Shown piece by piece: positions 8,178 through 58,457 of a DNA stretch of 64,000 nt. The notes beneath the pieces are model-generated. The model was not told where the DNA came from and did no database searches. It saw only the letters and a list, made by a program, of their open reading frames with translations. Position numbers and translations under genes: made by a program. The first letter of the stretch is position 1, and each line of letters opens with the position of its first letter. Origin of the DNA: Aerophototrophica crusticola (GTDB lineage: Bacteria > Pseudomonadota > Alphaproteobacteria > Azospirillales > Azospirillaceae); the NCBI GenBank assembly GCA_001939945.1, contig MOEB01000009.1, forward strand, positions 62,001 to 126,000. The letters are read 5' to 3'.

Positions 8178-11100
8178 CTACCCCTTCCCGTCCCGCATCA
8201 CCCGCAGCAGCACCCGGCTCAGCTCCTCCGCCGCATAGGGCTTCTGCAACAGCTCGAAGCCGTGGCGGCCTTCCTCCGCCAGGACATGGCTGTAGCCGCT
8301 GGTCAGCACCACGGGCAGGCCGGGGTAGCGGCGGCGCAGCTCACGGCCCAGCTCGATCCCGCTCATGCCCGGCATGACCACGTCGGTGAAGACGGCGTCG
8401 AAGCCCGGCCCCTCGGCCAGCTTGGCCAGGGCCTCCACCGCGTTGGCGGCCCAGCTCGTCTCGAAGCCAAGGTCCTGGAGGATCTGGGTGGAGAAGCTGC
8501 CCACCTCCGGGTTGTCCTCCACCACAAGCACCCGGCGGCCGCGGCCGTCCTCCGCCGGGGTGCTGTCGGCCTCGCCGGCGGAGGCGCCGGCCTGCCCACC
8601 CTCGGCCCGCGGCAGGTAGAGGGTGAAGGTGGTGCCCTTGCCGACGACGCTGTGCACGGCGATGTCGCCGCCCGACTGCTTGGCGAAGCCATAGACCTGG
8701 GACAGGCCCAGGCCGGTGCCCTTGCCCACCTCCTTCGTCGTGAAGAAGGGCTCGAAGATCTGGGTCAGCTTGTCCGGCGGGATGCCGGACCCCGTGTCGG
8801 TGAGGGACACGGCGCAGAAGGCCCCGTGGCGCACCCCGTGCCCGCGCAGGGCGGGCATCTTGGCCACCCCCTCCACCCGCACGGTCAGTGTGCCTTCGCC
8901 GTCCATCGCGTCGCGGGCGTTGACGGCCATGTTGACCAGCGCCGTCTCGAACTGGCTGGCGTCCGTCTCCACCAGGCAGGTGCCGCAGCCCACGTCGGTG
9001 ACGATCTGCACCCGGGCACCGACGATGGTGCGCAGCATGTCGGCCACTGCCAGCAGCCGCCCGCCCACGTCGAACACCTCCGGCTTCAGGGCGGAGCGGC
9101 GGGCGAAGGCCAGCAGCTGGCCGGTCAGCTTGGCCGCCCGGTCCACCGTGTCGCTGATCGCCTCCACATAGCGCCGCCGCCGCTCCTCCGCCAGGTCGGG
9201 CCGGCGCAGGAACTCCACGGCGGAGCGGATGATGGTCAGCAGGTTGTTGAAGTCATGGGCGACGCCGCCGGTGAGCTGGCCCACCGCCTCCATCTTCTGC
9301 GCCTGGCGCAGGGCCTCCTCGGCCACGCGCAGGGCCTCGGCCCGCTCCCGCTCCTCGGTGATGTCGCGGCCCACGGCGTGGATGAAGTCGTCCTCCGGCA
9401 CCGCCGTCCAGGACAGCCAGCGGTAGCCGCCGTCCTTGGTGCGGTAGCGGTTCTCGAACCGGGGCGTGGTGCGCCCCTCGGACAGGCAGGCCGCCTCCGA
9501 CCGGGTGCGGCCCACGTCGTCCGGGTGGATCAGGTCCAGGAAGCTGCGGCCCAGCAGCTCCTCCTCCGTCCAGCCCAGGATGGCGGTCCAGGCCGGGTTC
9601 ACGGCCGCGATGGTGGCGTCGAACCGGGCCACCAGCATGATGTCGGTGGACAGGCGCCACATGCGGTCCCGCTCGCGGGTGCGCTCGGCGATCTCCGCCT
9701 CCAGCTCGGCGCGGGAGCGGGCCAGCACCTCCCGCGCCTCCACCATGTCCTGGATGTCGGTGCAGGTGCCGAACCAGCGGATGATCTGGCCGTCGGCGTC
9801 GCGCACGGGCTGGGCCCGGCCCAACACCCAGCGGTACTGGCCGCTGCGGTGGCGCAGCCGGTACTCGATCCGGTAGGGCTCGCCGGTGGCGAGGCAGTGG
9901 CGCCAGGCATCCCAGGCCCGGTCCTGGTCGTTGGGGTGGAACATGCCGGCCCAGGCGTCCCCGTCCGTGGTCCCGTCCGGCACGCCGGTATAGTCGTACC
10001 AGCGCTGGTTATAGAAATCGTGGAACCCGTCCGGCCGGGTGGACCAGACCATGTGGTCGATGGAGTTGGCGATGGCCTGGAACTGGGCCTGGCTGGCCCG
10101 CAGGGCCCGCTCCATCCGGACCCGATCGCTGATGTCGGTGAACAGGATGGCGACGCGGTGTTCCGCCGGGTCGCCGACGCGGAAGGCGTGGACGTCGAAC
10201 CAGCGATCGCCCATGGGGGCGGAGCCGTTCTCGAACCGGGCGGGCCGGCCGGTCAGGGCCACCTGGCCATAGGTCTCGAACCAGTGGCTCTCCAGGCCGG
10301 GCACCAGCTCACGCGCCGTCCTGCCCTCCGCCCCCGTCAGCCCGGTCTGGCTCTCGAAGGCGGGGTTCACCTCGACGAAGCGGTAGTCCACCGGTGTCAT
10401 CGCCGCGTCGAAGAGCATCTCGACGACGCAGAACCCGGCATCAAGGGAATTGAACAGGGAGCGGTAGCGCTCCTCGCTGCGGCGCAGCCCCTCCTCCGCC
10501 GCCTTGCGGTCGCCCACGTCGCGGTAGAACAGGGCCATCCCGCCGTCCCCAGTGGGGTAGGCGCGCACCTCCAGCCAGAGGTCGCGCCCCTCGACCTGGT
10601 AGCGGTGCTCCGTCGTGCCGGGGCGGCGGTCGCGCATGACCTGCCGATAGAACGCCTCCAGCGGCGTGCCGACGCTGGCGGGCCAGAGGTCCCAATGGCT
10701 GCGGCCCAGCAGCCCGGACCGCGGCCTGCCGTCCATGCGGCACGCCTCGGCGTTCGCCTCCACCACCCGGAAATCCGGGTCCAGCAGCAGGAAGCCTTCC
10801 AGCATGCCGGCCAGCACATCGCGGGCGCGGGCCTCGCTCACCTCCAGCGCCTCGACGGCGTGGCGGCGCTCCAGCACCCGGGCGGTGACGTCCTCCACCG
10901 TGTGCAGGATGTGGGTGACCGTGCCGTCCCGGCCGACCAGGGGCACGTTCAGCGGGGCCCAGTGCCGCTCCTCGAACCGGCCGGACGGGCCGCGGATGTC
11001 ATAGCGCTGCACCGGCATCCGGTCAGGCTTGCCGGTGGCCAGGACCCGCTCCAGCGAGGAGCGCAGGTTCCGGACACCGTCGGCGAAGGGGTCGTCTGGG

Positions 11101-13732: not shown

Positions 13733-13758
13733 GGCGGGTTTCGAATTCGAAACCCGCC
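13733..13758. repeat. 26-bp perfect palindrome around TTTCGAATTCGAAA
   Basis: A perfect palindrome (13 bp per half, half-site GGCGGGTTTCGAA) abuts the TPR gene stop codon and precedes pilT. The same core sequence CGGTTTCGAATTCGAAACCG occurs right after another stop codon at 34022-34041, so this is a recurrent post-stop element, perhaps a terminator or attenuator. Confidence 0.75.
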
Positions 13759-33817: not shown

Positions 33818-33825
33818 GTGCCTTA

Positions 33826-33920
33826 GAGCGTGTTTACGCTGACCGTAAACACGCTCCGGCGGCGACTGCCGCCGCGCCCGCCCATGCGGGCGTAGCCAAG
33901 CCGCGGATGCGGCGCCGGCG
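33826..33920. repeat. Structured multi-hairpin element, copy A
   Basis: Five consecutive inverted repeats just after the MFS stop. Stem 1 is 13 bp (33826-33838 with 33844-33856, starts GAGCGTGTTTACG). Stem 2 is CGGCGGC-GACT-GCCGCCG (33857-33874). Stem 3 is CGCCCGC-CCAT-GCGGGCG (33875-33892). After the linker TAGCCAAG, stem 4 is CCGC-GGAT-GCGG (33901-33912), then CGCCGGCG and TTTGAG. Copy B at 42835-42935 has the same order, same loops and linker, but compensating stem changes. It lies between two convergent genes. Confidence 0.8.
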
Positions 33921-33953
33921 TTTGAGATACCGTGTTGGCTGTCAAGCGGGCTG

Positions 33954-33983
33954 GACCCGTTTCCAGTCTGCGGGAAACGGGTC
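33954..33983. terminator. Hairpin between convergent MFS and EAL genes
   Basis: Perfect 11-bp stem GACCCGTTTCC / GGAAACGGGTC with an 8-nt loop, followed on the plus strand by TGGGGAAAAAGG. It is one of several hairpins in the 228-bp convergent gap and a candidate terminator. Confidence 0.55.
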
Positions 33984-34021
33984 TGGGGAAAAAGGAAGCG
34001 GCCGGGAGGGTCACTCCCGGC

Positions 34022-34041
34022 CGGTTTCGAATTCGAAACCG
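34022..34041. repeat. 20-bp palindrome around TTTCGAATTCGAAA, second occurrence
   Basis: CGGTTTCGAATTCGAAACCG lies 4 nt beyond the EAL gene stop (34046). The 18-bp core GGTTTCGAATTCGAAACC is identical to the centre of the palindrome at 13733-13758, which also directly follows a stop codon. Confidence 0.75.
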
Positions 34042-36359: not shown

Positions 36360-38105
36360 TCACGGGCGGATTGGGTTCCGTCCCAGCGCCCGGTCCAGCG
36401 CCGCCACCAGATCGTCCATCTGGAACGGCTTCGGCAGCACCGTGAAGGGCGTGCCGGCGGCCACCTGCTCGCTGTAGCCGGTCATCAGCACGACGGGCAG
36501 CCCCGGCCGCTGCCGCGTCGCCTCCAGCGCCAGGTCCACGCCGGTGAGTTTGCCGGGCATGACCACGTCGGTCAGCATCAGGTCCAGCGCCGCGCCGCCC
36601 GCCAGCAGGGACAGGGCCTCGTCCGCCGTGGTGGCCCGCTGCACCGCGAACCCCATGTCCAACAGGGCGTCGGCCAGCACGGCCCCCACCACCGGGTCAT
36701 CCTCCACCAGCAGCAGCCGGCCCGCCCGCGTCCCGTCCTGGACCGTCGCCGCGGCCTGTGCCTGCGCGGGCTGCGACGACGAGCGGGGCAGCAGCAGGGT
36801 CACCGCCGTGCCCACGCCGGGGGCGCTGTCGATCCGCACCGTGCCGCCGGACTGGCGGGCGAAGCCATAGACCTGGGACAGGCCCAGCCCTGAGCCCTTG
36901 CCCATGGCCTTGGTGGTGAAGAAAGGCTCGAACACCCGGGCCAGCACGGCCGGCTCCATGCCGGTGCCGTTGTCCCGCACCACCAGCCGCACATAGTCCC
37001 CGCCGGCCAGCCCCTCGCCCGGGTCGGCGGGCAGGCCGGCGCAGTTGGCCCCCTCCACCCGCAACTGCCCGCCGTTCGGCATGGCGTCGCGGGCGTTCAC
37101 GGCCAGGTTCAGGATGGCAAGCTCCAGCTGGGTGGGGTCCACCTCCACCGGCCACAGGCCGGCGGCCAGGTCCAGCTCCAGGGCGATGTCGGCCCGCAGG
37201 GCCCGGGCCAGCAGCTCGGACATGCCGAGCAGCCGGTCACGCACGTCCGTCGGCTCCGGCCGCAGGGCCTGGCGCCGGGCAAAGGCCAGCAGTTGCTGGG
37301 TCAGCTTGGCGCCCCTGTCCACCGCCTGCTGGCCCGCGTCCAGCAGCGGGTCCAGCGCCGGGTTCCGGGCCCGCTTGCGCACCAGCGACAGGCATCCCGC
37401 CAGGGCCTGGAGCAGGTTGTTGAAGTCATGCGCCACCCCGCCGGTGAGCTGGCCGATGGCTTCCATCTTCTGGGTCTGGCGCAGGGCGGCCTCCGCCTTC
37501 TCCCGCTCCTGGATCTGCTGGCGCAGGTCGCGGTTGGCGACGGCAAGCGCCCGGTTGGCCTTGGCCAGGGCCGCCTGCGCGGCCGCCAGCACCCCCAGCA
37601 CCAGGCAGGCCATCACGACCAGCAGGCCGATGCCGCCATAGCGGGCCAGCCGCCGCTGCGCCGGTTCCCGTTCCATCCGCAGCAGCACGTTGCCGATCAC
37701 CATCTCCCCCTGCGCCACGGTGGCGGAGACGGTGAGGCGCCGCGCCGGGTCGGCGCCGGGGTCGGAATCGGGGTCGGGGGGCAGGGCCGGCTCCCCTGGC
37801 CGGGCGAATCCGGCCACCAGCCCGCGGCGGCCATAGACGCCGGCGGCCATCACCTCCGGGTTCACCCGCAAGGCGCCCACATACTCGTGCGCCGCGGCCT
37901 GGTCCTCGAACACCAGCGCCGCCGTCACGCTGGCGGCCAGGATCTGGGCCTGCACCTGCGCCTCGCGCAGCTTCTGCCGCTCATACAGCCGCTCGTTCAG
38001 GAAGGCCACGGTGCCGCCGGTCAGCAGCACGGCCAGGGCGCCCAGCGCGGCCACGATGGGGATCAGCCGCCAGCGGGGCGAGAGGGCTCGGGTCTCCATC
38101 GGCAT
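36360..38105 (-). CDS. Membrane hybrid sensor kinase of the TonB/YfiR operon
   Basis: 581 residues. Two transmembrane helices (about 13-35 and 155-178) flank a periplasmic sensor of about 120 residues that resembles CHASE8-type domains (AAHEYVGALRVNPEVMAAGVYG). A coiled linker follows, then H-box [11 protein letters not shown] near residue 225, N-box [11 protein letters not shown]1 DNGTGME, G2 [12 protein letters not shown], and a C-terminal receiver (about 465-575) with Asp in LTDVVMPGK near 511. It starts 3 nt after the yfiR-like stop. The order TonB receptor, YfiR-like protein, kinase suggests it senses events in the periplasm through the YfiR-like protein. It could also be read as a paralogue of the kinase at 8178-11279 in its catalytic half. 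Confidence 0.93.
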   Translation of the reverse strand: MPMETRALSPRWRLIPIVAALGALAVLLTGGTVAFLNERLYERQKLREAQVQAQILAASVTAALVFEDQAAAHEYVGALRVNPEVMAAGVYGRRGLVAGFARPGEPALPPDPDSDPGADPARRLTVSATVAQGEMVIGNVLLRMEREPAQRRLARYGGIGLLVVMACLVLGVLAAAQAALAKANRALAVANRDLRQQIQEREKAEAALRQTQKMEAIGQLTGGVAHDFNNLLQALAGCLSLVRKRARNPALDPLLDAGQQAVDRGAKLTQQLLAFARRQALRPEPTDVRDRLLGMSELLARALRADIALELDLAAGLWPVEVDPTQLELAILNLAVNARDAMPNGGQLRVEGANCAGLPADPGEGLAGGDYVRLVVRDNGTGMEPAVLARVFEPFFTTKAMGKGSGLGLSQVYGFARQSGGTVRIDSAPGVGTAVTLLLPRSSSQPAQAQAAATVQDGTRAGRLLLVEDDPVVGAVLADALLDMGFAVQRATTADEALSLLAGGAALDLMLTDVVMPGKLTGVDLALEATRQRPGLPVVLMTGYSEQVAAGTPFTVLPKPFQMDDLVAALDRALGRNPIRP

Positions 38106-42032: not shown

Positions 42033-42255
42033 CCTGACCGGCGGCGGACAGCCGCTGTCCGGAAACGGACAGCCTGTTCACCCGGGCGGTGGCGATGATG
42101 GCGACACTGTGGCGGCACCGGCCATTCGGTCGCGCCGCCGCCACCGGCTCCGCGGCCCGCCCCAGGAAATCGGCCCCATCCGGCACTTGGCACGGCGGTT
42201 GCTCTCCTATCCGGGCAAGAGACCACCGCCGAACACCCAGCCAGGAGAGACCGAG

Positions 42256-42408
42256 ATGACCACCCTGACCACCCGCGCCGCCGGCACCCCCACCTCGTTC
42301 CTCGACCGCGTCGCCGCCAAGCTGCCGCACGCCTCCGAGTTCGTGGAGACCACGGGCATGCTGGCCATCGCCGGCTTCATGCTGGCCTGTATCAACCACA
42401 TCCTGTGA
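42256..42408 (+). CDS. Small membrane protein (50 aa)
   Basis: Short gene, easily missed, supported by AGGAGAG about 7 nt before the ATG and by a coding-like composition. The product is a Thr/Ala-rich polar N-terminus, an amphipathic middle (SFLDRVAAKLPHASEFVE) and a C-terminal hydrophobic helix GMLAIAGFMLACINHIL ending at the stop. This is a tail-anchored topology. It lies 223 bp after the FrhB-like gene, with a small CGGACA-N5-TGTCCG hairpin (42045-42061) in between. I do not recognise a family; light-harvesting or stress-related small proteins were considered but there is no specific evidence. Confidence 0.6.
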   Translation: MTTLTTRAAGTPTSFLDRVAAKLPHASEFVETTGMLAIAGFMLACINHIL

Positions 42409-42460: not shown

Positions 42461-42736
42461 TCAGTCCGCGTCCAGGTTGCTGAACATCAACACCTTGCGT
42501 TCCAGGTCGAACATAGCGTGGCCGCTGGCCGCGAACAGGCGCAGGATGACCTCCATGTCGTCGGCCGTGGTGTCCAGGATGTACTCCTCGACCCCGTTGT
42601 CCAGGATGAGCTGGAGCGTGAACTTGCCCGGCCCGCCCCGGTCCCGCTCGGTCCAGGAGGCCTGGATGTCGGTCACCTGCCGCACCGCATAGCGGCGTTC
42701 CAGCTTCTGCTCGCGCGCGTCCTTCTCGTCGGCCAT
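42461..42736 (-). CDS. Conserved-looking hypothetical protein (91 aa)
   Basis: 91 residues, soluble, acidic, no cysteine. A GGAGAGG site precedes the ATG. The N-terminus is charged (MADEKDAREQKLERRYAVRQ), followed by beta-rich segments (KFTLQLILDNGVEEYILDT) and a helix (ADDMEVILRLFAASGHAMFD). The even mix of residues and good ribosome site argue for a real gene. It lies tail-to-tail with the 50-aa gene and downstream of the multi-hairpin element B, which sits in its 5' flank. Function unknown. Confidence 0.65.
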   Translation of the reverse strand: MADEKDAREQKLERRYAVRQVTDIQASWTERDRGGPGKFTLQLILDNGVEEYILDTTADDMEVILRLFAASGHAMFDLERKVLMFSNLDAD

Positions 42737-42834
42737 GGCCCTCTCCGTCGCAGGGGGCCCGGGATGGGCCCCTCGCGACGCCTCAATGGGCCATGGGGGG
42801 AAGCGTTCCGGCGGGAGTGGCGTCCCGCCTATAT

Positions 42835-42935
42835 CAAGCGCATGAGTTTCTGCCTCATGCGCTTGGAGGCCGGCGACCGCCGGCCCGCGGGCCCATGCCC
42901 GCGTGAGCCAAGCCGCCGGATGGCGGCGCCCGGCG
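42835..42935. repeat. Structured multi-hairpin element, copy B
   Basis: Same architecture as 33826-33920. Stem 1 is 12 bp (42835-42846 with 42854-42865, CAAGCGCATGAG). Stem 2 is GGCCGGC-GACC-GCCGGCC (42868-42885). Stem 3 is CGCGGGC-CCAT-GCCCGCG (42886-42903). After the linker TGAGCCAAG, stem 4 is CCGCC-GGAT-GGCGG (42913-42926), then CGCCCGGCG and CCTGAG. Loops (GACY, CCAT, GGAT) and linker are conserved relative to copy A; stem bases differ in pairs that keep the pairing. Confidence 0.8.
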
Positions 42936-42943
42936 CCTGAGGG

Positions 42944-42969
42944 GCCGTTGATCGGTCACGATCAACGGC
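42944..42969 (-). terminator. Hairpin after the periplasmic hypothetical gene
   Basis: Perfect 11-bp stem GCCGTTGATCG / CGATCAACGGC with a GTCA loop, 8 nt beyond the stop of the gene at 42978. No T-run is visible. It directly adjoins element B. Confidence 0.65.
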
Positions 42970-42977
42970 GGCTGGTA

Positions 42978-43469
42978 TTACTGCGACGCCTTCGACGCGG
43001 CTTCCTCCGCCGCCGCCAGTTCCGCCTGCAGGGCGTTCAGGCGGGCCTCGTTCTTGCGCACGAACTCCAGGTTCTTCTGGGTGACCGGCGACAGCTTGCT
43101 GGTGTCGCCGCCGGAGGTGGCTGCCACCTGGGCCATGCTCGCCTCCGCCCAGGCCATGGTGACCTTCAGGAATTCCAGCGGCGGGCAGCCGTTCTTGCGC
43201 AGCATGCCGCTGAACACCGGCGCCTTCTTTTCCATGTAGGCGGCCGTTTCCTCCAGGGTCCCGTCGGGGGCGTCGTCTTCCTGGTTCTGCTCGGCCTGCA
43301 GCTTCGGGTCGGTGGCGGACTTCTTCAGCACGTCCACCATGGCGGCGTTGCACTTTTCCAGCGCCGGCATGGTCAGGGTGTAGTCCACCGCCGCCTCGTG
43401 GGTCTGCGCAAGGGCGGCAGGGGCGGCCAGCAGGGCCAGGGCGAGGGTTGCGGGCAGGAGACGGGTCAT
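42978..43469 (-). CDS. Hypothetical periplasmic protein (163 aa)
   Basis: 163 residues with a textbook signal peptide (LLPATLALALLAAPAALAQ, cleavage near residue 22). The mature part is helical: VDYTLTMPALEKCNAAMVDVLKK, an acidic EQNQEDDAPDG loop, then YMEKKAPVFSGMLRKNGCPPLEFLK. A C-terminal coiled-coil ends in an Ala/Glu/Ser repeat (NALQAELAAAEEAASKASQ). The two cysteines could form a disulfide. The start at 43469 is selected because it begins the signal peptide; the longer open frame is a shadow of the neighbouring kinase gene region. No family recognised. Monocistronic, followed by a strong hairpin. Confidence 0.75.
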   Translation of the reverse strand: MTRLLPATLALALLAAPAALAQTHEAAVDYTLTMPALEKCNAAMVDVLKKSATDPKLQAEQNQEDDAPDGTLEETAAYMEKKAPVFSGMLRKNGCPPLEFLKVTMAWAEASMAQVAATSGGDTSKLSPVTQKNLEFVRKNEARLNALQAELAAAEEAASKASQ

Positions 43470-55846: not shown

Positions 55847-56042
55847 CGCCACCCTCCCCAGCCCAGCAAGGGCATCATACGGCCGACCTCCCCGCTATTG
55901 AAGGTCCGTTCCGGCCCTGCGCCACCAAGCCGGATGCAACGTGATAACCCAGTCGGCACACCGTTCCCCCTATCCCCGGTTGCAGCCCTGAACATCCGGC
56001 ATTTCTAATCAACAGCAGCAGGGCTGGGGTTCGGGGGGAGTC

Positions 56043-57227
56043 ATGGTCTTGTGGCTTGGCACGGCAGTGGACGACAGCCACCGCGGCACACCGGAAGCCG
56101 ACCGGCTGGAAGGGCTGGACGGCAACGACCGGTTGTGGGGGGAAGGCGGGGACGACACCATCCTGGGCGGGGCCGGCGATGACCGCCTCTGGGGTGGGGC
56201 GGGGCATGACTTCCTGTTCGGGGAGGACGGGAACGACGGCCTTGTCGGCGGGCTGGGCGACGACAGCTTGCGCGGCGGGCCGGGCGATGACCGGCTGGAT
56301 GGCGACGCGGGCAACGACCAGCTCTGGGGCGGGCTGGGCCAAGACACCCTGAAGGGCAGCGCCGGGAACGACAGGCTTTCCGGCGGCCCTGGGAATGACT
56401 GGCTGGACGGCGGCACGGGGGAGGATGACGTCTACGGCGGTGACGGGAACGACACCATCGAGAACATCGGCCCGGGGGATGAGGTGCGCGCCGGTGGGGG
56501 CGATGATCTGATGGTTGTGCGGATCGGCCCCATCTACCTGCCCGACCTGCCGGGTGAAAAGGCCGTGGGCCTGCTGGATGGTGGCAGCGGCTTTGACACG
56601 GTCCGCGTCCACAACCAGGGCTTCACCTTCGACTATCCGGCCAAGGAACCGACTGTGCCGGCCTCGGTCCTTGTCTGGGCCAGCGGCAACCCGGAGGAAC
56701 CGGGCATTCCCATCGCGGTTCTGTTCATCGGCCATGCTGGGGAGAGTTGGCCAGAGGATCCCCTGGGCGCCTATTACGCCTTCAGCGGCATCGAACGGGT
56801 GGAGGCGCCGGCCGACAGCAGCCGCAGGATGCATTATGACGGGTCCGCGAGCCTGTTCCGGTCCATGACGGTCATCGGCGGCGACGGGAATGACACCTTC
56901 CGCCCCGGCCCGTCCAGGGAGGTGCTGGACGGTGGCAAGGGCAATGACACCTTCTATCTGGAGGTGGAGGATCTGGGGACGGACCATTGGATCAGCGACC
57001 CCGATGACGCGGACCGCTTCGACTTCTTCAACCAGACCAGGGGCAGGGTCACCCTTACCGGCTTCAACGGCCAGGGGGAGGAGGGTGGGGACGTTCTGGA
57101 CATGCGATCCCTGCCAGACCTGACCGTCACGGAAAGCCCGGACGGCACCACCCTTTTCGCCTGGCAAGGCGTGAAGCTGGTCGTGGACGCGGTCGGCCTT
57201 GTCCAGGGCGTGGACTACCTCACCTGA
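56043..57227 (+). CDS. RTX-type calcium-binding repeat protein, first of a tandem pair
   Basis: 394 residues, acidic. Residues about 18-135 consist of glycine-rich nonapeptide repeats (GGxGxDxLx), such as GGAGDDRLWGGAGHDFL and GGPGDDRLDGDAGNDQLW, that form a calcium-loaded beta-roll. A unique middle domain (about 150-290) contains IGPIYLPDLPGEKAVGLL and ENIGPGDEV. Another short repeat patch (about 278-305) and a C-terminal domain with LTGFNGQGEEGGDVLDM near 340 follow. No N-terminal signal peptide, so export by an unlinked type I system using a C-terminal signal is expected. The ATG has a GGGGGGAG site. The paralogue at 57264-58457 follows after 36 bp. Confidence 0.88.
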   Translation: MVLWLGTAVDDSHRGTPEADRLEGLDGNDRLWGEGGDDTILGGAGDDRLWGGAGHDFLFGEDGNDGLVGGLGDDSLRGGPGDDRLDGDAGNDQLWGGLGQDTLKGSAGNDRLSGGPGNDWLDGGTGEDDVYGGDGNDTIENIGPGDEVRAGGGDDLMVVRIGPIYLPDLPGEKAVGLLDGGSGFDTVRVHNQGFTFDYPAKEPTVPASVLVWASGNPEEPGIPIAVLFIGHAGESWPEDPLGAYYAFSGIERVEAPADSSRRMHYDGSASLFRSMTVIGGDGNDTFRPGPSREVLDGGKGNDTFYLEVEDLGTDHWISDPDDADRFDFFNQTRGRVTLTGFNGQGEEGGDVLDMRSLPDLTVTESPDGTTLFAWQGVKLVVDAVGLVQGVDYLT

Positions 57228-57263
57228 CCGGCCCCCGCATGACCGGCGGGGCGAGGAGGCATC

Positions 57264-58457
57264 ATGGTTCTCTGGCTTGGCACGGCGGTGGACGACAGCC
57301 ATCGCGGCACACCGGAAGCCGACCGGCTGGAAGGGCTGGGCGGCAATGACCGGCTGTGGGGGGAAGGCGGAGACGACACCATCCTGGGCGGGGCCGGCGA
57401 TGACCGGCTGTGGGGCGGGGCCGGCTTTGACGTCCTGTCCGGCGACGTCGGCAATGACGGCCTTGCCGGCGGCCTGGGCGACGACAGCCTGCGCGGCGGG
57501 CCGGGGGACGACCGGCTGGACGGCGACGCGGGCAATGACCGGCTCTGGGGTGATCCCGGCCGGGATGTCCTGGCGGGCGGGGCGGGGAACGACTGGCTGT
57601 CGGGCGGGCCGGGGAATGACACGCTGGACGGCGGCACCGGGCAGGACACCCTGTATGGCGGGGACGGCAACGACACCTTCCTTCGGATCGACCCGGGGGA
57701 GGAGGTGGATGGCGGGGCCGGTGACGACCTGATGGTCGTGGATTTCGGCCCGATCTACCTGCCCGACCTGCCGCCGGACAAGGCCCTGGGATTCCTGAAA
57801 GGCGGGGACGGGTTCGACACGGTGCGGGTCATCAACACCGCCTTTTCCTTCAACTACCCGGCCCTGGACGCGACCATCCCCTCCCCCATCTTCATCTGGG
57901 CCGGCGGCAACCCGGAGGAGTTGGACAACCCCACACCCGTCCTGTTCGTGGGGGCCAATGCCGAGGTCTGGTCCGACAACCCACAGGGCGCCTTCTATTA
58001 TTTCACCGGGATCGAGCGGATCGAGATCGTCGCCGATGCCGAGCGGCGCGTGCAGTATGACGGCGACCGCAGCTCCCTGGAGCCATTGACCATCATCACC
58101 GGCGACGCCAACGACGCCCTGAGCGCCAGCCTGTGGCAGGAGGTGCTGGACGGCGGCAAGGGCGACGACACCTTCTACATCGGGCCGGACACGCAGCAGG
58201 GGGACCGCTATGTCAGCCGCCCCGACGATGCCGACCTGTTCTATTTCTCAGGGCCCATCATGGGCCGCATGACGCTGACCGGCTTCAACGGCCAGGGTGC
58301 GGCGGGAGGCGACGTCATCCGCTTCCAAGACATCGCGCCCGGCACATTCACCGTCACGGAGAACGCGGACGGCACCACCCTGATAAGCTGGGCGGAGGAG
58401 GCGGAACTGCTGGTGGATGCCGTCGGGCTGGTGCGCGGGGTCGATTACTTCGTGTGA
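57264..58457 (+). CDS. RTX-type calcium-binding repeat protein, second of a tandem pair
   Basis: 397 residues, same order of parts as the upstream gene: N-terminal MVLWLGTAVDDSHRGTPEAD identical to its twin, nonapeptide repeats to about residue 137, middle domain with FGPIYLPDLPPDKALGFL, second repeat patch near 280-310 (DGGKGDDTFY), and C-terminal LTGFNGQGAAGGDVIRF. At the DNA level the first 140 bp are nearly identical to the twin, while the middle and 3' parts have diverged, which suggests a recent tandem duplication or gene conversion limited to the repeat region. Probably exported together with its neighbour. Function unknown; a structural or surface-layer-like calcium-binding role is plausible. 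Confidence 0.88.
   Translation: MVLWLGTAVDDSHRGTPEADRLEGLGGNDRLWGEGGDDTILGGAGDDRLWGGAGFDVLSGDVGNDGLAGGLGDDSLRGGPGDDRLDGDAGNDRLWGDPGRDVLAGGAGNDWLSGGPGNDTLDGGTGQDTLYGGDGNDTFLRIDPGEEVDGGAGDDLMVVDFGPIYLPDLPPDKALGFLKGGDGFDTVRVINTAFSFNYPALDATIPSPIFIWAGGNPEELDNPTPVLFVGANAEVWSDNPQGAFYYFTGIERIEIVADAERRVQYDGDRSSLEPLTIITGDANDALSASLWQEVLDGGKGDDTFYIGPDTQQGDRYVSRPDDADLFYFSGPIMGRMTLTGFNGQGAAGGDVIRFQDIAPGTFTVTENADGTTLISWAEEAELLVDAVGLVRGVDYFV

Follow-up and report, generated by a model that had tools for sequence, protein, structure and literature searches.

A family of probable non-autonomous MITE-like elements with a conserved folded core in the Azospirillaceae

Introduction

By analogy of build, the closest described counterpart of the element reported here is the BOX family of Streptococcus pneumoniae and S. 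suis, which PMC3049150 describes as small, modular and tightly folded repeats with terminal inverted repeats, target site duplications and variable internal modules. In S. suis, the same paper describes two sets of ends, boxA/C and boxE/F, around one boxB module, and the element here likewise has two end types around one core. BOX elements occur in different bacteria, however, and the element here is very GC-rich, the homology of the two having been compared through Rfam only. ISSpn2 has been proposed as the partner of BOX (PMC3049150), whereas no partner insertion sequence was found here. In the sections of PMC10969869 that characterise them, prokaryotic MITEs are short and intergenic and have terminal inverted repeats, target duplications and stem-loop transcripts, and the element here is alike; according to the same sections MITEs are typically AT-rich, whereas this element is very GC-rich, its conserved termini are short and its fold of five hairpins covaries.

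Two further systems bear comparison. According to PMC12016507, the IS1031 group of IS5 prefers TNA targets and produces exclusively a 3-bp direct repeat, like one of our two end types (type II), but the ends of the group member given there begin with GAACC and type II ends begin with TACC. REP families carrying GTAG or CGTC tags are high-copy extragenic hairpins, as here, and most CGTC families are found in alphaproteobacteria, seemingly without a dedicated transposase (PMC3733652, in the pages that treat them); these pages give REPs as tagged palindromes of 20-40 bp, in contrast to the five hairpins, defined ends and target duplications of the present element.

The window had no Rfam match at gathering score, and a sub-threshold Rfam scan gave none for one copy of the element (copy B) and two for the other (copy A), both below their gathering scores. 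No description of the family was found in the literature searched, which scarcely covers subscription journals. Small mobile repeats are known as a kind, but to the extent of our searches this family has not been described. What seems to be new is the family itself, its targeting of stop codons and the sharing of one core between two types of end.

Results

Two copies of a five-hairpin element

The window, that is, the whole stretch of DNA that was analysed (64,000 nucleotides), spans positions 62001-126000 of contig C318 in the 6.06-Mb genome of Aerophototrophica crusticola. An earlier sequence-only reading had described one series of hairpins at two loci of the window, and we found this series at both on re-reading the sequence (copies A and B, Table 1). 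As that reading had it, stem 2 and stem 3 each differ between the copies at two pairs, every one of them changed on both sides, the linker AGCCAAG is the same in both, and stem 4 is longer by one pair in copy B. The series lies where it had been placed, but each element is longer than described and holds an extra right-hand hairpin (hairpin 5). The long first stem is present in both copies, but its sequence differs between them, and two end types are involved: type I, as in copy A, and type II, as in copy B. Both copies fold better than dinucleotide shuffles (copy A, z -5.5, 0 of 200 shuffles as good; copy B, z -3.8, 1 of 200).

Table 1. Features of copies A and B, numbered from the first nucleotide of the window.
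Feature	Position	Strand	Basis or remark
Copy A, type I element, 158 bp	33826..33983	+	compared with type I copies of relatives
Copy A neighbours: MFS transporter gene (stop 33817), convergent EAL gene (stop 34046)			
Left TA flank of copy A	33824..33825	.	read from sequence
Right side of copy A, TG	33984..33985		TA pair not intact
Copy A hairpin 1, GAGCGTGTTTACG/CTGAC/CGTAAACACGCTC	33826..33856	+	sequence and folding
Copy A stem 2, CGGCGGC/GACT/GCCGCCG	33857..33874	+	sequence, folding, alignment
Copy A stem 3, CGCCCGC/CCAT/GCGGGCG	33875..33892	+	sequence, folding, alignment
Copy A linker AGCCAAG	33894..33900		sequence re-read
Copy A core end: AGCCAAG, stem 4 (GGAT loop), CGCCGGCG, TTTGAG	33894..33926	+	
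Copy A possible pairing, GCC with GGC	33895..33897 with 33917..33919		
Copy A hairpin 5 = right end, GACCCGTTTCC...GGAAACGGGTC	33954..33983	+	likewise present in further type I copies
Copy B, type II element, 146 bp	42832..42977	+	between minus-strand genes 42461-42736 and 42978-43469
Copy B left flank (CTA)	42829..42831	.	one base off right-hand TTA
Copy B hairpin 1, CAAGCGCATGAG...CTCATGCGCTTG	42834..42866	+	sequence, folding, alignment
Copy B stem 2, GGCCGGC/GACC/GCCGGCC	42868..42885	+	sequence, folding, alignment
Copy B stem 3, CGCGGGC/CCAT/GCCCGCG	42886..42903	+	sequence, folding, alignment
Copy B linker AGCCAAG	42906..42912		sequence re-read
Copy B core end: AGCCAAG, stem 4 (GGAT loop), CGCCCGGCG, CCTGAG	42906..42941	+	
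Copy B possible pairing, GCC with GGC	42907..42909 with 42932..42934		
Copy B hairpin 5, GCCGTTGATC/GGTCAC/GATCAACGGC	42944..42969	+	sequence, alignment
Copy B right terminus TGGTA	42973..42977	+	inverted relative to left terminus (TATC in B, TACC in most copies)
Copy B right flank (TTA), which is the stop (TAA) of minus-strand gene 42978-43469	42978..42980	.	

The EAL protein encoded beside copy A has its closest named relatives, at 73% each, in Niveispirillum sp. SYP-B3756 and Azospirillum sp. RU38E. A separate terminator-like site for the EAL gene lies outside copy A, at 34023-33999. The proteins of both minus-strand genes around copy B matched no Pfam family. Gene order around the two copies is not kept in relatives, so that the MFS, EAL and ROK relatives offered no clean empty site; the 37 loci around these relatives gave no hit with the covariance model described below (the MFS relatives are 8 loci, L183-L190, and the 3' end of L185 lies at a contig edge).

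Other repeats were seen in the window. The 14-bp palindrome TTTCGAATTCGAAA occurs twice (34025-34038 and 13739-13752; shuffles gave an expectation of 0) and in 6 of the 399 loci fetched, all from the same genome, one of which (L182) overlaps the window; it may represent a second kind of small repeat, or else a binding site. An inverted copy of the 363-bp stretch 42046-42408, which holds a 50-aa frame (42256-42408), lies ~28 kb off on the same contig (G000:C318:132371-132733, L204) with 96% identity, and a 300-nt direct repeat is found at 56034-56333 and 57255-57554 (88% identical, 1221 bp apart). Four collinear stretches that are 72-86% alike (families D3, D6, D11 and D12) link 8667-9324 with 36843-37497, and this likeness suggests two related genes.

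The stems are kept by compensatory change

Pairing was measured in an alignment (A1) of 76 distinct cores, which are 82 minus six odd ones (L008, L020, L023, L029, L033 and L053). Stems 2, 3 and 4 were paired in 98.6% of cells vs 80.0% in shuffles, so the upkeep of the stems, proposed by the sequence-only reading on two copies, extends to the further ones. Double-sided changes were present in 205 cells vs 69.6 in shuffles, and the covariation score was 0.355 vs 0.083 in shuffles and 0.017-0.070 when the partners were slid by one to three columns, controls that leave the kinship among copies in. In contrast, the number of pairs with a double change (10 vs 9.1; 77 of 500 shuffles as high) and that of further pair types (21 vs 19.2; 45 of 500 as high) were hardly above the shuffles. 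For a second alignment (A2), 18 full-length type II copies out of 33 were taken, all from A. crusticola and RU38E, with near-duplicates and other genera excluded. Its six helices were paired in 98.7% of cells. Both sides had changed in 78 cells (23 in shuffles), and such double changes affected 15 pairs (10.2 in shuffles); these shuffles, too, retain kinship. The RNAalifold consensus adds a pairing of GCC (of AGCCAAG) with GGC (of CGCC(C)GGCG) that encloses stem 4; these pairs hardly vary, and never in A2, so that covariation speaks neither for nor against them.

We next compared G·U with A·C mismatches, counting unique arms of this genome in hairpin 1 and stems 2-3, stems that were picked by a neutral rule. 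G·U exceeded A·C by 36 to 9 (hairpin 1, 25 to 5; stem 2, 9 to 3; stem 3, 2 to 1), or by 21 to 9 when counted as distinct position-and-pair events (p 0.04). Hairpin 5 had no strand bias across all sampled genomes (G·U 33, A·C 28), and the one-strand bias thus concerns part of the stems only. From the excess in hairpin 1 and stems 2-3, the fold of one strand is probably kept, and this is probably the strand given in Table 1, the one first read, as RNA or single-stranded DNA. The interior also varies in its parts: the copies fetched from G023 have a longer stem in place of stem 3, and long forms (L286, L287) have an additional hairpin within CGCC.C.GGCG.

Copies are numerous and confined to one family

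The constant parts were combined in the pattern AGCCAAGN{0,12}GGATN{0,20}TGAG, with its reversed form as control. This pattern matched 95 places in the genome vs 0 for the reversed form; 94 are real, and the remaining one (C285:46408) matched by chance. The sequence-only reading had called for a covariance search; with a model made from the 76 cores, all 150 candidates that were scored in this genome were hits of at least 43.9 bits, a lower bound on the copy number, and further copies were found in relatives. This agrees with that reading's dispersed multi-hairpin element kept by compensatory change, and with its option of mobility. The element is about 145-160 bp long and has no transposase gene inside, short and in many copies as MITEs are.

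Fifty-eight relatives were searched with the pattern. All 10 other genomes of the same genus had 7-152 matches each, four genomes of another genus (G011, G023, G028 and G031) had 70-176, G015, not of the host's genus either, had 385 in a 4.3-Mb genome, and G016 had 15. Other family members had 0-5; the 0-2 matches of 24 genomes outside the family are like those of the controls (0-1) and therefore at chance level. At E<=1e-6 the covariance model, with at most 59 candidates scored per genome, found hits in 51 genomes among 82 of the order; these 51 belong to a single family and to 9 of 13 genera. DNA matches were also found on two plasmids of Niveispirillum cyanobacteriorum and one of Azospirillum oryzae. 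The elements are a family of non-autonomous MITE-like elements within the Azospirillaceae.

RU38E elements typically measure 157 bp between flanks. RU38E also has short forms of 82-122 bp, in which the core or another part is missing but the two TNA flanks remain identical, and L284 of A. crusticola consists of hairpins 1 and 5 only, with TGA on both sides. In relatives the core is also repeated in tandem, up to five times and every 102-120 bp (L344, L345 and L346 in RU38E, L350 in G023, L348 in G010 and L097 in G032). The G015 copies among the matches listed (L212-L231) are nearly identical and many lie near contig ends, for which reason the element probably breaks assemblies.

Two end types surround a common core, and type II duplicates TNA

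Terminal inverted repeats, as expected of MITEs, are present in both end types. Type II ends read TACC...GGTA (one-base variants were allowed in the search), with hairpins 1 and 5 just inside, and were found in five genera. In RU38E they read TACCAATC...GATTGGTA; between genera about 4 bp of the terminus are common and TACC alone is constant. Type I ends in relatives read TAGAGC...GCTCTA, that is, GAGC-type ends next to TA.

Type II copies are flanked by 3-bp direct repeats of the form TNA. Counting only copies with TNA on both sides (17 of 102 anchors in this genome, one of the 3 mismatching rows, L067, having a doubtful left end), flanks were identical in 14 of 17, where 4.4 were expected. 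In RU38E, inverted end pairs drawn from 100 of 117 ends had identical TNA in 17 of 21 (5.7 expected), and across five genera, in a set that overlaps the two former, 26 of 32 full-length copies did (8.4 expected); in either case none of 100,000 permutations, which keep the selection for TNA, was as high. Type II thus has the target site duplication of MITEs, weakly so in G015 alone, the genome with most copies, where TNA flanks agree in 3 of 7 (1.6 expected) or, in a second count, 4 of 7. Type I copies had TA on both sides in 9 of the 35 short-core copies of A. crusticola, and a duplication cannot here be told from a part of the ends.

The 93 cores of this genome comprise 58 long and 35 short ones. 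Both type II ends were visible in 16 of the 58 long-core copies, and 19 of these 58 and 11 of the 35 short-core copies had no recognisable right hairpin. Given this low share of intact ends (16/58 and 9/35), most copies of this genome have lost, or never had, recognisable ends, and a large share is decayed or core-only.

Stop codons as a probable, nearly harmless landing site

Flanking genes were called with a codon-usage script for 93 distinct copies, recovered from the 94 real pattern places. They were convergent at 36 copies, co-directional at 27 and 23 in the two orientations and divergent at 6, with one side undetermined at 1. No called gene covered the middle of the core in the 93 copies; the core was overlapped by more than 5 bases in one (L008) and the hairpin 1 region in 8. 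Among 14 type II insertions of this genome with identical flanks, TNA was exactly a stop codon in 7, compared with a 14% share of stop codons among free (non-coding-plus-stop) TNA triplets of the same loci (p 0.0015). At insertions sitting on stops, the TNA duplication restores the stop codon. In a genome of ~70% GC a considerable share of free TNA sites are stop codons, and because the stop is restored, such insertions probably do little harm; insertion exactly at stop codons through the TNA target would thus offer a nearly harmless landing site. This target also accounts for much of the excess of copies at the 3' ends of genes.

In G023, one copy (L355, G023:C2:312000-312500) lies just before a reading frame. 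By its first residues we take this frame to resemble groEL, the copy being perhaps in a groES-groEL interval.

A search for an autonomous partner

Wider inverted pairs (400-6000 bp) among 100 of the 117 RU38E ends numbered five, and each left end was already closely partnered; at least three RU38E ends that were inspected formed part of no recognisable element. Likewise, no TACC ends were found at 25 PF01609 and 14 PF13586 loci, although two of the transposase loci (L389 and L393) have other, imperfect repeats flanked by TNA. Where left-end patterns matched in the A. crusticola genome, the 14 places fetched held single hairpins, shortened or long forms of the element, or no element at all, and none held an insertion sequence; type I ends in N. 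cyanobacteriorum gave no partner match at 6 places. The ends of IS1031-group elements generally begin with GA. Type II shares with this group the 3-bp TNA duplication and not the GA-initial ends; the GAGC-like ends of type I presumably resemble those of the IS5 family in general. The flanks of the IS5-like locus L290 of RU38E read TTA|GAGTCCG...CGGACTC|TAA, a pattern as in type I, and by this likeness L290 may serve as a lead, and as a lead only, to a type I partner.

Discussion

We conclude that the element is very probably MITE-like and non-autonomous, a transposable element whose interior keeps its fold and on which a transposase would act in trans. This reading draws on the copy number, the spread among relatives, the defined ends, the TNA duplication, the insertion at stop codons, the covarying stems, the strand bias of part of the stems, the rarity of genes overlapping the core, the shortened forms and the tandem arrays. 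Against it speak the constant TACC, which alone is short for a transposase site, the negative search for an autonomous partner in the sets covered, the many copies of A. crusticola without recognisable ends, the weak TNA agreement in G015, the unbiased hairpin 5, the two covariation measures close to the shuffles and the lack of a clean empty site around copies A and B. We suggest that a DDE transposase would recognise the ends, TACC...GGTA in type II and the GAGC type in type I, with an IS1031-like staggering for type II and an IS5-like one for type I. For type II, the target would be cut with a 3-bp stagger at TNA, which would leave TNA on both sides. As for the interior, a compact fold may be best tolerated where the element is transcribed together with its neighbours, or the folded strand may have a part in the spread of the element, two options that are not separable here. 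It is quite unlikely, in our judgement, that the folded core itself is what behaves selfishly. The core would then be a structured RNA, or a single strand in folded form, that serves to spread or retain itself, that two or more transposition systems (TACC/TNA and GAGC/TA) have carried and that uses stop codons as safe landing sites.

The element could instead be a structured RNA of the host, acting in cis or in trans (a 3'-UTR stabiliser, a processing site or a small RNA) and dispersed because it is useful. Such a role is in line with the strand-specific surplus of G·U in hairpin 1 and stem 2 and with the recurrence of AGCCAAG...C-GGAT-G...CGCC(C)GGCG...TGAG in several genera, which the search pattern partly demands; the core is also common to the two end types, and some copies lie directly upstream of genes, L355 of G023 among them. 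However, copy number ranges from 0 to 385 inside one family, copies lie in both orientations to genes, the loci around the MFS, EAL and ROK relatives hold none (0/37), and shortened forms keep their TNA repeats when the core is gone, so we consider a host RNA somewhat unlikely. Bidirectional transcription terminators would account for the many copies between convergent genes and the few between divergent ones (36/93 and 6/93). Yet a scan of copies A and B, the only two scanned, found no stem followed by a T-run, and the intrinsic terminator was rejected on this ground; moreover, the TNA target at stop codons explains much of the 3' bias and the orientation among co-directional genes is even (27 vs 23). 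Terminators are thus highly improbable, and the plain terminator cassette, one of the options of the sequence-only reading, did not stand, both orientations to genes being found and the EAL gene having a terminator-like site apart from copy A.

That reading had also considered a mobile single-stranded DNA element of the REP/RAYT kind, i.e. palindromic REP/BIME repeats moved as single strands by a Y1 (RAYT) transposase. Hairpins, an extragenic 3' location, high copy number and tandem arrays in relatives are all shared with REP/BIME repeats, and the folding of single-stranded DNA would give the same partial preference for one strand. Y1 transposition, however, is not known to make a target duplication, and type II copies have TNA duplications. 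PF01797 had no match in the A. crusticola genome, the sole genome searched, whereas 5 of 14 control genomes were positive. Neither a constant GTAG nor a constant CGTC tag is present, the bases before AGCCAAG vary in A1, and the element has five hairpins in 145-160 bp rather than a palindrome of 20-40 bp. The absent PF01797 in this genome, the TNA duplications and the absent tag led us to reject the REP/RAYT element, which we hold to be very improbable.

Two features are unusual: the insertion exactly at stop codons through a TNA target, and the strong covariation in a mobile element together with the single core under two kinds of end. A fold required for movement would connect DNA transposition with RNA-like structure; a fold that is not so required would show selection of folding for tolerance in transcripts. 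Were the core the selfish unit after all, one RNA-like module would parasitise several transposases. Some genomes hold around a hundred matches to the pattern, or more, so the family bears on annotation, on assembly and on the 3' regions of genes, and it places small mobile repeats in the Azospirillaceae, a plant- and soil-associated host family.
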